This document shows, piece after piece, positions 37,389-42,558 of a DNA stretch of 42,558 nucleotides. A program made the translations under genes and the position numbers. The number at the start of each line of letters is the position of its first letter. Position 1 is the stretch's first letter. Source of the stretch: Bacillota bacterium (GTDB taxonomy: Bacteria > Bacillota > Sulfobacillia > JAJZIM01); the NCBI GenBank assembly GCA_021810565.1, contig JAJZIM010000024.1:1-42558 (forward strand), written 5' to 3'. The notes under the pieces were generated by a model. The model searched no databases, was not told where the DNA came from, and worked only from the letters and a program-made list of their open reading frames with translations.

Positions 37389-39800
37389 ATGGCGGATGAC
37401 GACGCGGCGCCCCTCCGGCAGGCCGGGTGGGAGCTGCGGCTATTGGGCGGGTTTGCCCTCACCGGCGCGGGCGGGGAGCCGATGCCGCCCATCGCCCCGC
37501 GGCTGCGGCTGCTTCTGGCCAGCCTGGCCCTGTTCCCGGGGGAGGAACAGGGCCGCGAGGGTTTGGCCAGCCGGTTGTGGCCGGAGTCGGATCAGGAGCA
37601 GGCCCGCACCAACCTGCGCAAGGCGTGGCACGAGCTGCGCCGGCGGCTGCCGCAGGCCGAGCGGCTGGTGGACGCGGCGGGGGAGACCCTGACCTGGCGC
37701 GCGGATGCCCCCTGCCGGGTGGACGCGGTGGAGTTTCGCCGCGCGGCGGAGGGGCGCACGGTGGAGGAGCTGGTTCGGGCGGCAGGGCTGTACCGGGGGG
37801 ATTTCCTGCCGGATCACTGGGAGGAATGGGTGCTGTCCCGCCGGGAGGAGCTGCGCCACCAATACCTGGGAGTCCTGGAGCGCCTGGCGGCCCTGATGGA
37901 GAGCCGCGGGCAGTACCGGGAGGCGCAACGGCGGGTGCGCCAACTCCTGGCGGAGGATCCGCTGCGGGAGGAGCACTGGCGGCGGCTCTTGCGCCTGGCG
38001 GGGCTGCAGCATGACCGGGCCGCGCTGGAGCACGCGTGGCGGGAGTGCGGCGAGTGGCTGCGCCGGGAGCTCGCGGTGGCGCCCAGCGAGGCCACGCGGC
38101 GCGCCTACGAGGCGGCGCGGGAGGAGGCCGAGCGCCCCGCCGTGAGGACGGCGGGCACCGCGCGCTGGGAGGAGCTTTTGGAAGGGGTGGAGGAGGAGCT
38201 CTTCGTGGGGCGCGAAGCGCTACGGGAGTGGTTCGCCACCTGGCTGACCACGGATGCGCCGCCGGCGTTGCTGGCGGTGCACGGACCGGGCGGCGTGGGG
38301 AAAAGCGCCCTGCTGCGCGCTTTCGCCCGCCAGGCGGCGCGGCAGGGGTGGGCCGTGCGAGTGCTGGACGCCCGGGACGTGCCGGACGTGCCCCGCGCCT
38401 TGGGGCGGGCCCTGGGGCGGGGGCAGGGGAGGCGGCTGGTGCTCCTGGACACCTGCGAGGCGGCGCCGGGGTTGGGGCGGCACCTGGCGGAGCACCTTTT
38501 GCCGCGGCTGGAGCACGGCTCGCGCCTGGTGGGGGCGGGTCGGTTTCCCCTGGGGCGCGCCTGGGCGGCGGACTCGCCTTGGCGGCGGGTGGTGCGGGAG
38601 GTGGCCCTGGCCGGCTTCAGCCCGGCGGAGAGCCGCGAGTACCTGCGCCGGCGCGGGGTGGTTTCCGAGCCGGTGGCGCAGCGGATATTGGACATGGGGG
38701 GCGGCAGTCCCCTGGCCCTCTCCCTGGCGGCGGACCTGGCGGTGGGAGCGGGGGCGGTGCGCTTTCCGGCCCCCGGGCAGTGGTCCCGGGTGCTGGGGGA
38801 GCTTTGCGACCAGCTGCTGCGGGAGGTGCCGAACCCCCAGCTGCGGGAACTCTTGGAGCTGGGCTGCGTGGTGCGCCAGTTCGACGCGGGTCTCCTGGAG
38901 GCCCTGGCCGGGCGCGGCGTGGGGCAGCAGGACCTGGAGCGGCTGGCCGGGCTGTCGGTGGTGGAGCCGTCCGAGCACGGGCTGCGGGTGCATGAGGAAG
39001 TGCGGGAACTGGTCCTAAAGCGGCTGGATCCGGCGGTGCTGCGGCGGCTGCAGGCGCAGGCGGCGGAGTGGTACCGGCGCCGCGCCGCGGCGGCCGAGGC
39101 CCGGGAGCGGGAGTGGCTGGTGGCGGAGCGGCTGTTTTTGTGCGGGGATCGGGTGGTGCACCAGTTCGTCTTCCCGCGGGAGCCGGAGGCCGAGGCGGTC
39201 TACCTGGATGCGGTGGGGGCGGCGGAGGCGCCGCGGCTGCGCCAGATCTGGCGCGTCTGGGCGGAGCAGGTCACCGGTGCCCCGCCCCGGGCCGCTATGC
39301 TCCGCGCGGTGGAGCGCCTGCTGGCCTATCCCGGTCTGGAGCTGCGGGCGGTGCGGGACGACTCGGGCAGCCTGGAGGGCTTTCGCGGCGTGCTGCCGGT
39401 GTGCCGGGAGTCGCTGCCGTTGCTTTGGGACCACCCCGCCTTCGGCAGCCTGGCGCACTCCCTCTGGAGCGATGCCTCCCAGTTGGCGCCGACCCCTCAG
39501 GAGAGCCGCTCCTACCACTTCACCTTCTCGGCCTTTTTGCCCCGGCTGGCGGGTCCGGTCCGGGCGGCCCTGGTGCGGGACGTGTTCGGATCCCTGGCCC
39601 GGGAGGGCAGCTACTACGTTTCCACCCCCGCGCCGGAATACAAGGCGCTTTTGGGGGTCTTCGGCTTTCGGCACCTGGCGTCCTTGCGCAACTGGGCCTA
39701 CGGGCCCCGCTGCCCCTGCGACCACTATGTGCTGGACCTGAGCCAAAGGGGCTTCGACGCCTGGGCGGAGGAGCTGGTGCGCCGGGTGTCCTCCTCCTGA
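37389..39800 (+). CDS. SARP/BTAD-type regulator with NTPase domain and GNAT-like C-terminus
   Basis: 803 residues. N-terminal OmpR-like DNA-binding domain (about 14-105: LRLLGGFALTGAGG...RLRLLLASLAL...ASRLWPES...RTNLRKAWHELRR). BTAD helical repeats (about 115-245: GLYRGDFLPDHWEEWVLSRREEL...LAEDPLREEHWRRLLRLAGL). A STAND/NB-ARC-type NTPase has Walker A HGPGGVGKSALL at 298-309, Walker B RLVLLDT near 350 and a winged-helix region to about 600. The last 170 residues (YYVSTPAPEYKALLGVFGFRHL near the end) have a GNAT-like look. A large one-component switch: ligand or protein binding would release DNA-binding through ATP hydrolysis. ATG 37389 has a poor site; context is otherwise clear. Confidence 0.82.
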   Translation: MADDDAAPLRQAGWELRLLGGFALTGAGGEPMPPIAPRLRLLLASLALFPGEEQGREGLASRLWPESDQEQARTNLRKAWHELRRRLPQAERLVDAAGETLTWRADAPCRVDAVEFRRAAEGRTVEELVRAAGLYRGDFLPDHWEEWVLSRREELRHQYLGVLERLAALMESRGQYREAQRRVRQLLAEDPLREEHWRRLLRLAGLQHDRAALEHAWRECGEWLRRELAVAPSEATRRAYEAAREEAERPAVRTAGTARWEELLEGVEEELFVGREALREWFATWLTTDAPPALLAVHGPGGVGKSALLRAFARQAARQGWAVRVLDARDVPDVPRALGRALGRGQGRRLVLLDTCEAAPGLGRHLAEHLLPRLEHGSRLVGAGRFPLGRAWAADSPWRRVVREVALAGFSPAESREYLRRRGVVSEPVAQRILDMGGGSPLALSLAADLAVGAGAVRFPAPGQWSRVLGELCDQLLREVPNPQLRELLELGCVVRQFDAGLLEALAGRGVGQQDLERLAGLSVVEPSEHGLRVHEEVRELVLKRLDPAVLRRLQAQAAEWYRRRAAAAEAREREWLVAERLFLCGDRVVHQFVFPREPEAEAVYLDAVGAAEAPRLRQIWRVWAEQVTGAPPRAAMLRAVERLLAYPGLELRAVRDDSGSLEGFRGVLPVCRESLPLLWDHPAFGSLAHSLWSDASQLAPTPQESRSYHFTFSAFLPRLAGPVRAALVRDVFGSLAREGSYYVSTPAPEYKALLGVFGFRHLASLRNWAYGPRCPCDHYVLDLSQRGFDAWAEELVRRVSSS

Positions 39801-39871: not shown

Positions 39872-40072
39872 ATGATTTCGGAAGGAGGGCCCAGGTCCCA
39901 ACTTTTCACGGTGCGCCTGTGGCGGGAGCAGTTGAACGGCGACCGCGAGGAGCTGCGGGGGCAGGTGCGCGACGTGGCCAGCGGCGAGGAACGCTATTTC
40001 CGCGATTGGGCGGACCTGGAGCGCTTCTTGCGGGAGAAGCTGCCGCCGGGCAAGGCTTCGCGCGACGGCTGA
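39872..40072 (+). CDS. Small conserved-type hypothetical protein (66 aa)
   Basis: 66 residues: SQLFTVRLWREQLNGDREELRGQVRDVASGEERYFRDWADLERFL. The pattern 'F.VR.W.E.l..gr.E.RG.v..v.sGe.ryFrdw..L..Fl' is one I know from many small Chloroflexi- and Firmicutes-type proteins of unknown function. It forms a compact beta sheet plus helix. ATG follows AAAAGGGGGGGG. It sits 71 bases after the SARP/BTAD regulator gene on the same strand, so it may be a target or partner. No function can be given. Confidence 0.7.
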   Translation: MISEGGPRSQLFTVRLWREQLNGDREELRGQVRDVASGEERYFRDWADLERFLREKLPPGKASRDG

Positions 40073-40539: not shown

Positions 40540-41106
40540 CTAGTGTCCCATAGGCATCACAAACATCAGCTGCTCATGTTTCAGTGACTCGATTCGAGAA
40601 AATAACTTGATCTTTTTATTGCCCTTCTCCTTGGCGGCTTCCGACATAAAGGAGAGGATTTCCTCGAGTTGCTTCACGTTAGCAACGTCCTTGAAGAGTC
40701 TAGCTTTATTCACGAAGACGGTCGATTGCTTCTTGCGCATTAAGAGTTCTATAATATTACCCAAAGTGCCTGTGCTTTCGGCGTCCCAAATCATCAAACC
40801 CATATCTGCCATCTCTGCCATGCGAATGTCCTTCGCAGTGAAGAACGCCCGCGAACCTTCAGCGTGCTTTGTATCAACTCGTTGCACGGGCCAGTTGCCC
40901 ACGTTGTTTCTCGGTTTGAGTCCGCTACAATATATAGTGGTCTTCTTCGCGCCATGGTTGAACAGGTACGATTGGACTAGTGTATCGGCGCCATCAGCAT
41001 CACCCACCACAATCTCGTAGTCGTTGGCCAGAAGTCTGTCAATATGTCTTTTTACCAGAGGATCAAGGTATCTGATTTTCATCGAACCAGCAATGAAAAC
41101 GCGCAT
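40540..41106 (-). CDS. SLOG-superfamily (YspA-like) nucleotide-binding protein
   Basis: 188 residues from ATG 41106. Rossmann-like SLOG layout: first strand RVFIAGSMK, then LANDYEIVVGDADGADTLVQSYL ('GdadGaD' is the YspA/DUF2493-type nucleotide loop), TTIYCSGLKPRNNVGNWPVQRV, FTAKDIRMAEMADMGLMIWD and STGTLGNIIELL. The C-terminal 50 residues are Lys-rich and helical (EAAKEKGNKKIKLF). SLOG proteins bind or hydrolyse nucleotides, and in conflict systems they sense or make nucleotide signals. It follows the phosphoribosyltransferase gene after five bases. Base composition is much lower in GC than the rest of the window, so it is probably acquired. Confidence 0.8.
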   Translation of the reverse strand: MRVFIAGSMKIRYLDPLVKRHIDRLLANDYEIVVGDADGADTLVQSYLFNHGAKKTTIYCSGLKPRNNVGNWPVQRVDTKHAEGSRAFFTAKDIRMAEMADMGLMIWDAESTGTLGNIIELLMRKKQSTVFVNKARLFKDVANVKQLEEILSFMSEAAKEKGNKKIKLFSRIESLKHEQLMFVMPMGH

Positions 41107-41111
41107 AGCCC

Positions 41112-41870
41112 TTACTTTACCTCCCCCCACGTTAGCACAGCCACGTAGATATCTCGTACCTTATTGTAGGTTCGCAGCACCCGGCAGGCTGCCTCCATTG
41201 AAGCTCCGGTTTGGAATAGATCATCGACGATTAGTACATTCCCTGGGCCGTGTTCTTTAACCCTATCATTTATCTGGAGGCTATCACCAATTGCCCGGAA
41301 CTTTTCTTCCTTTGTCCTGAAATCCTTAAGCGGTGTCTCATTAGGGGCTTTAATCAACACATTCTCGGCCACTGGCAGTTGCACTAGTATGCCCAATTCT
41401 TTGGCTATTTCGCTGACCGGCTGGCGGGGCCTACTGGTAGAGGCTGGCATCGGGACGATCATTTTGACCGAAGTGAACTTTGGATAAATGTTATCAAAAA
41501 TAGCTTGTGCAAGCGGTTTTGCCTGCTCCCAGTTGTTGCGGTACTTGAGTTGGAAGTGGGCCTCACCCACCTCAGTGCGAGTCGTATTGAATATGGGATG
41601 CCCGGAATCGTGGTCCCCAATATATTCGCTTCGGACGCTGTGTTTGTCAAGTACCCAACCATCAGCCCAAGGACCGTGAATCTGTTTGAGCATAACCCTC
41701 AAGACATGCCCCTCCAAGCTACTTGCGTACTTTGTCGAGGCCAGGATTGCTCTCGATCCGAGGTCTTTGATGCGTCTATTCGGTGCAACTACCGGGTTCT
41801 CCTGCAAGGAGTCAAGGTCTTCCGTCAGTGGGGTTGGGTGGGCTAGGGTTGGGGTACTTCGTCGGGGCAC
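41112..41870 (-). CDS. ComF-like phosphoribosyltransferase
   Basis: Up to 252 residues. The N-terminal half has WADGWVLDKHSVRSEYIGDHDSG...FNTTRTEVGEAHFQLKYRNN, a pattern seen in a ComF-related group with a treble-clef-like lead domain, here without obvious Cys ligands. The C-terminal PRTase domain has KMIVPMPASTSRPRQPVSEIAKELGI and the PRPP loop NVLIVDDLFQTGASMEA. It would transfer or release phosphoribosyl groups. The exact start is uncertain: GTG 41870 gives the longest form, and inner starts at about 41811 (TTG) are possible. Operon with the SLOG gene; AT-rich DNA. Confidence 0.82.
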   Translation of the reverse strand: MPRRSTPTLAHPTPLTEDLDSLQENPVVAPNRRIKDLGSRAILASTKYASSLEGHVLRVMLKQIHGPWADGWVLDKHSVRSEYIGDHDSGHPIFNTTRTEVGEAHFQLKYRNNWEQAKPLAQAIFDNIYPKFTSVKMIVPMPASTSRPRQPVSEIAKELGILVQLPVAENVLIKAPNETPLKDFRTKEEKFRAIGDSLQINDRVKEHGPGNVLIVDDLFQTGASMEAACRVLRTYNKVRDIYVAVLTWGEVK

Positions 41871-42042
41871 CCATCCTGAGGGAATGATGGGGAGTAGAGA
41901 GGGGGACAGGATGAGGCCTGCCTTCCATTCCGGTCGCGCGGACTGGGTCTTTCACCGAAAACTGGGTGGTGGCGGGCATGCCGTTGCCGAACAGTTGTCT
42001 GGAACTTGCGCCGCTGGGGGCTGGGAACTGCTCACGACTTTA
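41871..42042. other. Short non-coding stretch before the IS607-type gene
   Basis: 172 bases back between the island and the recombinase gene, GC-rich again. It should contain the left end of the IS607-type element. No clear inverted repeat end seen, as expected for this family. Confidence 0.35.
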
Positions 42043-42071
42043 TTGACAAACTGTACATGGTATATTAAAAT
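42043..42071 (+). promoter_or_regulatory. Promoter of the IS607-type gene (predicts a leaderless mRNA)
   Basis: Perfect TTGACA (42043-42048), 17-base spacer, TAAAAT (42066-42071). The ATG begins at 42078, seven bases after the -10, so transcription would start at or next to the start codon. There is no Shine-Dalgarno sequence upstream. Confidence 0.65.
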
Positions 42072-42078
42072 GATACCA
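42058..42078. promoter_or_regulatory. Inverted repeat overlapping promoter and start codon (candidate operator)
   Basis: TGGTAT (42058-42063) and ATACCA (42073-42078) form a perfect inverted repeat with a 9-base spacer. It covers the -10 box and the first base of the start codon. Binding here would shut off the transposase gene. Confidence 0.5.
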
Positions 42079-42558
42079 TGAAACTGAGTCAGTGGGCCAA
42101 GGAGCAGGGAGTGAGTTACCGCACGGCCTGGCGGTGGTTCCGGGACGGCAAGCTGCCGGTGGCCGCCGAGCAGTTTCCCACCGGGACCATCCTGGTGAAG
42201 GAGGCCAAGTCCGCGGCGAACACCGCCGCCGTATATGCCCGGGTGTCTTCGACCGATCAGGCGGGGGATCTGGACCGGCAGGTCGCACGGGGGTCGGAGC
42301 ACCTCAACGCGCAGGGGATTGCCGTGATCCGGACGGTGCGGAAAGTGGGGTCCGGTCAGAACGGACACCGGCGGAAGCTGCTGTGCCTTCCGGCCGATCC
42401 CAAGATATCCATGGTGGCCGTGGAGCACCGGGACCGCCGCCTGCGCCTGGGCGCGGAATACGTGGAGGCGGCGCTGGCCGCGCAAGGAAGAAAGCTCCTG
42501 GTGGTGGATCCCGAGGAGATGAAGGACGACCTGGTGCGGGACATGATCGACGTGCTGA
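42078..42558 (+). CDS. IS607-family serine recombinase (TnpA), N-terminal part, runs off the window
   Basis: 160 codons are visible and the frame is still open at the end. The N-terminal MerR-like helix-turn-helix domain reads KLSQWAKEQGVSYRTAWRWFRDGKLPV. The serine recombinase domain has AVYARVSSTDQAGDLDRQV, where the second Ser of RVSS is the likely nucleophile by homology, then KVGSGQNGHRRKLL, VAVEHRDRRLRLGAEYVEAAL and KLLVVDPEEMKDDLVRDMIDVL. This is the IS607 OrfA order. These enzymes move DNA by serine-linked strand exchange; a TnpB gene normally follows. The usual EHRDRLMRFG reads EHRDRRLRLG here. Complete element is outside the window. Confidence 0.88.
   Translation, partial: MKLSQWAKEQGVSYRTAWRWFRDGKLPVAAEQFPTGTILVKEAKSAANTAAVYARVSSTDQAGDLDRQVARGSEHLNAQGIAVIRTVRKVGSGQNGHRRKLLCLPADPKISMVAVEHRDRRLRLGAEYVEAALAAQGRKLLVVDPEEMKDDLVRDMIDVL

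Follow-up and report, generated by a model that had tools for sequence, protein, structure and literature searches.

A small phosphoribosyltransferase (PRTase) and a single-domain SLOG protein, encoded side by side near the end of a Bacillota contig, very likely form a type II-like toxin-antitoxin module with a logic resembling that of ShosTA and PsyrTA. The PRTase is read as the toxin and the SLOG protein as the antitoxin because gene decay falls lopsidedly on the PRTase, because some SLOG proteins carry helix-turn-helix (HTH) tails, and because the pair is related to ShosTA and PsyrTA. The balance also tilts, by a smaller degree, towards an anti-phage role, and the module is probably used in both phage defence and plasmid maintenance.

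The locus and its two proteins

The window, meaning the whole stretch of DNA that was analysed, is a complete contig of 42,558 bases. Both reading frames of the pair were found on its minus strand with a spacing of 5 nt, which agrees with the original prediction of a ComF-like PRTase gene and a SLOG gene five bases apart. The module lies less than 1 kb from the contig end and comprises the following features, listed together with its neighbour:

40540..41106, minus strand: predicted antitoxin gene encoding the 188-aa SLOG protein from an ATG start, with a YspA/DprA-type Rossmann-like fold
41112..41702, minus strand: predicted toxin gene encoding the 196-aa PRTase from a TTG start, which was placed by start context and homologue starts; the product is identified by PRTase, ComF, PsyrT and ShosT matches
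41703..41870, minus strand: in-frame stretch upstream of the PRTase gene, probably non-coding, judged from homologue starts and free of any RT or HTH remnant
41709..41715, minus strand: putative ribosome-binding site GGAGGGG, 6 nt before the PRTase TTG, assigned from its position
42078..42558, plus strand: IS607-type serine transposase gene, incomplete at the contig end, a neighbour outside the module

The PRTase had been given a GTG start at 41870 and a length of 252 aa. We moved the start to TTG 41702, since GGAGGGG lies 6 nt upstream and the homologue starts match: nine of ten aligned PRTase sequences begin at the residue corresponding to this TTG or within one residue of it. The protein is thus probably 196 aa long. 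A promoter and terminator scan gave no signal above chance for the pair, and RNA and tRNA scans across the window found none.

The low-GC island reported around the pair is real: GC content is 0.48-0.52 across 40.5-42.0 kb, whereas the chromosomal DNA around it has about 0.65-0.77. The island is not unique on the contig, as the first 2.5 kb of the window are equally low. The adjoining IS607-type gene, which runs off the contig end, was verified with NF033518 (E=6.6e-42). Other features of the contig were noted in passing. The second low-GC stretch (1-2454) holds, by eye, a transposase-like remnant and a glycosyltransferase-like gene. An 803-aa BTAD and AAA/STAND-type regulator (37389-39800) adjoins the island, and a 66-aa ORF (39872-40072) lies near it.

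The PRTase carries a PRPP-binding loop, VLIVDDLFQTGAS, that includes D160 and D161; these two residues and G166 are invariant in 71/71 PRTase sequences. Its AlphaFold2 model (pLDDT 91.7) matches H. pylori ComF best (7p0h, Z 16.5). ShosT comes next at Z 11.2 and 11.1, tied within the stated error with ordinary PRTases at about 10. Sequence searches against solved structures returned weak loop matches only. Among PADLOC models, the protein matched PsyrT (2.7e-10) and ShosT (8.4e-9, 33.6 bits). The match to PsyrT covers its last 145 aa, which correspond to the C-terminal PRTase part; the helicase part is absent from the 196-aa protein according to both the PADLOC search and the length of the frame.

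The model of the SLOG protein (pLDDT 96.4) places it in the SLOG superfamily by its predicted SLOG/DprA Rossmann-like fold. The matches to YpsA (Z 14.3), DprA (13.2) and ShosA (12.9) are tied or nearly so, and H. pylori DprA and ShosA hold the top Foldseek ranks. A sequence search of solved structures with this protein matched none. It shares its fold class and an N-terminal motif with YspA-type proteins (YAcAr, DUF2493), but its match to PF10686 (YAcAr), at 14.1 bits, stays below the Pfam gathering score of 28.2, and unlike them it is coupled to a PRTase. The VIA-align lists omit some SLOG families, and absence from these lists was not counted as evidence.

Many SLOG residues are strongly conserved. 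Long SLOG proteins occur in 18/110 pairs, and the extra part is an XRE-type HTH in those inspected. Some of these HTH-tailed proteins are annotated as 'addiction module antidote protein'. Antitoxins that act as repressors of their own operon commonly have such tails.

Pairing, spread and lopsided loss

Several phyla contain homologues of both proteins, about 45-69% identical, with gene order and spacing unchanged. SLOG homologues were found at 80 bacterial genome loci and, in addition, on IMG/VR contigs and plasmids; the GenBank phage collection yielded no homologue at E 1e-3. The PRTase gene precedes the SLOG gene in 110/110 distinct pairs; in 109 of them the spacing is between -4 and +14 nt, and in the remaining one it is 40. 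The two proteins co-evolve: their pairwise distances correlate at r=0.80, against a maximum of 0.34 in 1000 shuffles. The co-occurrence search proposed with the original prediction returned a constant arrangement, and not genes that are rarely adjacent.

The distribution of the family is patchy. Members occur in Pseudomonadota, Bacillota, Acidobacteriota and others. In the phylum of the window, family-level PRTase matches were found in 3/398 genomes, one of which (G191) shares a near-identical cassette with a Peptococcaceae MAG contig and may be mis-binned, and all other matches were at the ComFC level. Among 299 Pseudomonas genomes, the PRTase was matched in 16 and the SLOG protein in 22. Both genes were present in 4/240 alphaproteobacterial genomes, and a match was found in 33/5,426 E. 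coli genomes. Housekeeping ComFC genes are separate from the PRTase family. The pairing is thus not a rare arrangement. Nor is it a fixed housekeeping locus shared by all relatives, which was the other outcome that would have spoken against it.

Loss within the pair is uneven. The PRTase is truncated, interrupted or gone, with the SLOG frame whole, in 25/127 SLOG-bearing loci, although closely related Pseudomonas account for many of these broken loci, and frameshifts in three of them, from metagenome assemblies, may be errors. Mapped on the SLOG tree, the PRTase losses require about 17 changes under the simplest account, and at least 7 are forced by well-supported branches. Because an intact SLOG gene was the starting point for finding most loci, samples selected by PRTase matter. 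Among loci chosen in that way, an intact SLOG gene lay next door in 33/34, and the contrast between 25/127 and 1/34 gives p=0.017. Unbiased whole-genome scans of Pseudomonas (n=299) gave seven cases of SLOG without an intact PRTase and one of the reverse (sign test p=0.035). When 19 genomes were searched whole (16 with a broken or missing PRTase and three intact controls), an intact family copy elsewhere was found in 0/16.

Plasmids follow the same pattern, with SLOG present in 55/57 PRTase records; the two plasmid PRTases without it are both broken, one cut by IS1 (L214) and the other by a frameshift (L230). In Enterobacter plasmids, an IS3 element splits the PRTase and the SLOG gene is kept. 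In Rhizobium CC1099, a stop codon falls inside the PRPP loop (DDVF*SGTT). Few PRTases lack an adjacent SLOG gene, and each of these is broken, altered at a conserved site or located beside another antitoxin. A toxin that is hardly ever kept alone and an antitoxin that outlives it form the genomic signature of toxin-antitoxin systems, and this signature is seen here with one exception. The exception is a Pseudomonas locus (L138), the only case of a PRTase whose frame is open although a partner is missing. It carries K126S at a residue otherwise invariant in 71/71 sequences. Its most conserved residues are otherwise kept, and this protein counts against a toxin-antitoxin reading.

Relation to known systems

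The closest functional relatives of the pair have been studied, and it is established that PRTases can be toxic and are paired with DprA-like antitoxins. Toxicity of RqlH depends on its PRTase residues, and RqlI binds RqlH (PMC4670107). A DprA-PRTase pair located in a P2 hotspot protects against T7 and lambda (PMC9122126). According to a review, ShosT is reported to have both PRTase and pyrophosphatase activity and to disturb purine metabolism, its trigger being T7 Gp0.7 (PMC12593503).

The window pair resembles ShosTA (PDB 8zvd, 8zvc, 8zva, 9vzo) in joining a ComF-type PRTase with a SLOG-superfamily protein in a two-gene operon, in having the same catalytic loop, and in a PRTase model whose second-closest fold is ShosT. 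It also differs in several respects. The predicted antitoxin of the window, at 188 aa, is a single SLOG domain and lacks the additional domains of DprA. Its gene follows that of the PRTase, whereas 3/5 of the ShosTA loci seen have the DprA gene in first place. The ShosT score of the PRTase (E=8.4e-9) falls short of true ShosT loci, which reach 8e-23 to 3e-49 and 79-166 bits. The PADLOC ShosA and PsyrA models gave zero matches to the window SLOG protein, against 223-321 bits for true ShosA. Membership in ShosTA was rejected on these grounds, although the adjacency of the two genes agreed. Profile comparison did not alter this outcome: for ShosT its alignment was limited to the catalytic loop, and for ShosA to a weakly matching SLOG core (129 columns, E=0.0086), and membership is not claimed.

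PsyrTA/RqlHI likewise places the PRTase toxin gene ahead of a SLOG-superfamily antitoxin gene. However, PsyrT has a RecQ-like helicase ahead of its PRTase and PsyrA is DprA-like, whereas the window PRTase lacks the helicase and both partners consist of one domain only. Membership in PsyrTA/RqlHI was rejected, as the helicase is missing and the SLOG protein has no PsyrA match.

Sequence matches in two genomes nevertheless indicate that the window family and PsyrTA swap partners, which represents the strongest link to known toxin-antitoxin systems. At the first locus (L237, 758-4724), a full PsyrT with helicase and PRTase (E=4e-213) is followed not by PsyrA but by a 645-aa protein with a SLOG region of the window type (28% identity, E=3e-11). 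At the second (L238, 1314-3528), the genes for a PRTase of the window family and a full PsyrA (E=3.5e-131) are convergent; the PRPP loop of this PRTase is altered and degenerate (DDVCRSRAT).

PRTase effectors are also typical of type III-A retrons (PMC12548924). There, too, the PRTase is the toxic part restrained by its partners, but the window has neither a reverse transcriptase (RT) nor an ncRNA. A separate observation concerns type VI retrons. At five loci (L013, 4247-5989; L014; L015; L016; L094), a type VI retron (HTH_VI 1.5e-33, RT_VI 2e-76) ends 5 nt before the pair, and a further locus (L017) carries a remnant of such a retron. L016 and L094 possibly represent one contig. With RT identities of 98-100% across Thiobacillus, Ramlibacter, Accumulibacter and a Peptococcaceae MAG, the four-gene cassette must have moved recently. 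The pair could be the effector of the type VI retron or a chance capture. The Peptococcaceae MAG cassette (L016 / G191:C44, L094) lies on a short contig and is nearly identical to the betaproteobacterial copies; mis-binning is possible.

The expectation of an undescribed system is not borne out in the sense of an isolated kind, as the nearest functional relatives have already been studied. No paper naming a PRTase-SLOG pair was found among openly readable articles, and ShosA and PsyrA models of the PADLOC type miss the SLOG protein. A PRTase system shown in a DefensePredictor figure (PMC13092281), but not named in the text of that paper, might be the window family.

Genomic context, mechanism and rival explanations

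The proposed mechanism follows the logic of a restrained toxin. A free PRTase of the ComF/ShosT type, with its PRPP-binding site intact, would consume or misuse PRPP or nucleotides, thereby poisoning DNA replication and the supply of nucleotides. Encoded right after it, the SLOG protein would hold the PRTase in check, probably through direct binding, and its nucleotide-binding pocket would be the likely sensor input. A phage that disturbs nucleotides or replication, or the loss of a plasmid, would cause the SLOG brake to fail, and growth would stop.

The genomic surroundings of the family bear on which of these roles is selected. Many plasmid copies adjoin ParA/ParB, resolvases, ParDE and replication genes, as would be expected if the pair were a plasmid or prophage addiction module, that is, a toxin-antitoxin system selected only for maintenance of its element and without a specific anti-phage role. 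We regard this explanation as rather unlikely. Chromosomal and prophage copies are common, and the E. coli chromosomal copy examined belongs to a P2-like prophage, where it is flanked by the portal gene and the replication gene, in a region like that described as a hotspot of antiviral systems (PMC9122126); judging from gene order, its position would be exactly the published hotspot slot. Known defence genes also lie nearby, including Hachiman, CBASS, DRT8 and restriction-modification genes. On plasmids, CBASS genes adjoin the pair in Agrobacterium and Rhizobium, and restriction-modification genes are near some copies. In the flanks of 14 chromosomal loci, at least 7/93 ORFs belonged to defence systems against 2/88 control ORFs, an enrichment that is suggestive only (p=0.17); those listed are Hachiman HamA and HamB, a CBASS cyclase with a 4TM effector, DRT8, RmrA and a type II methyltransferase. 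Overall, the family is conserved as a pair, patchy, mobile and often near defence or plasmid-stability genes, which bears out the earlier view of an acquired two-gene module. In the cargo of an E. coli P2-like prophage (L211, 9870-13142), RelA/SpoT-domain and ParA-family genes lie beside the pair and possibly form another defence or toxin-antitoxin unit.

The original prediction had proposed a nucleotide-signal system, in which the PRTase makes or releases a signal that the SLOG protein binds as sensor or effector. The SLOG domains of Thoeris ThsA and TRPM2 bind ADP-ribose-type ligands, and the window SLOG model matches them at Z about 9-11; the strong conservation of many SLOG residues also counts in favour of such a system. 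This account now appears improbable. The SLOG protein carries no fused effector domain, whether nuclease, membrane or NADase, and the HTH tails suit an antitoxin better. Moreover, a synthase-effector pair predicts that loss of either gene is harmless, yet the observed loss falls on the PRTase. Together with the kinship to ShosTA and PsyrTA, the evidence points instead to the toxin-antitoxin reading.

A pair acting in competence, DNA uptake or repair, composed of a ComFC-like PRTase and a DprA-like SLOG protein, is very improbable. It draws on the fold similarities, as H. pylori ComF is the nearest solved fold to the PRTase and DprA is among the nearest to the SLOG protein. The pair, however, is plasmid- and prophage-borne and missing from most genomes. 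Unlike ComFC, the window PRTase is mobile and patchy and far under the comF cut-off (TIGR00201, 25.5 bits against 233.55), and the housekeeping ComFC genes form a separate set.

Least probable of all is a remnant of a retron with the PRTase as effector: the five retron-linked loci and the PRTase effectors of type III-A retrons favour it, but tblastn with the type VI RT and HTH found no homologue in the window at E 0.01, the translation of 41703-42120 upstream of the PRTase contains no RT, most family members have no RT nearby, and the near-identical RTs of the retron loci mark one recent event.

Beyond the toxin-antitoxin reading itself, we tentatively suggest a wider scheme, which is possible but doubtful. 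The family could be a third widespread branch of PRTase toxins beside ShosTA and PsyrTA, in which a minimal SLOG antitoxin reads a nucleotide (for example, one derived from PRPP or altered by phage), unlike the DNA-binding ShosA. The nucleotide pool would then set toxin release, and the module would guard plasmids and P2-like prophages against phages.

If the toxin-antitoxin reading is correct, the annotations 'ComF family protein' and 'hypothetical protein' have hidden a toxin-antitoxin family that is carried on conjugative plasmids and in prophages of E. coli, and the defence catalogue used here misses the PRTase-SLOG family. The PRTase toxin-antitoxin logic of the ShosTA/PsyrTA type was known already; the window family would differ from it by a smaller antitoxin of a different family. 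With one domain in each partner, the pair would provide a simple system for the toxic PRTase chemistry and its restraint by SLOG, and the two partner exchanges with PsyrTA (L237 and L238) would serve as natural specificity tests.
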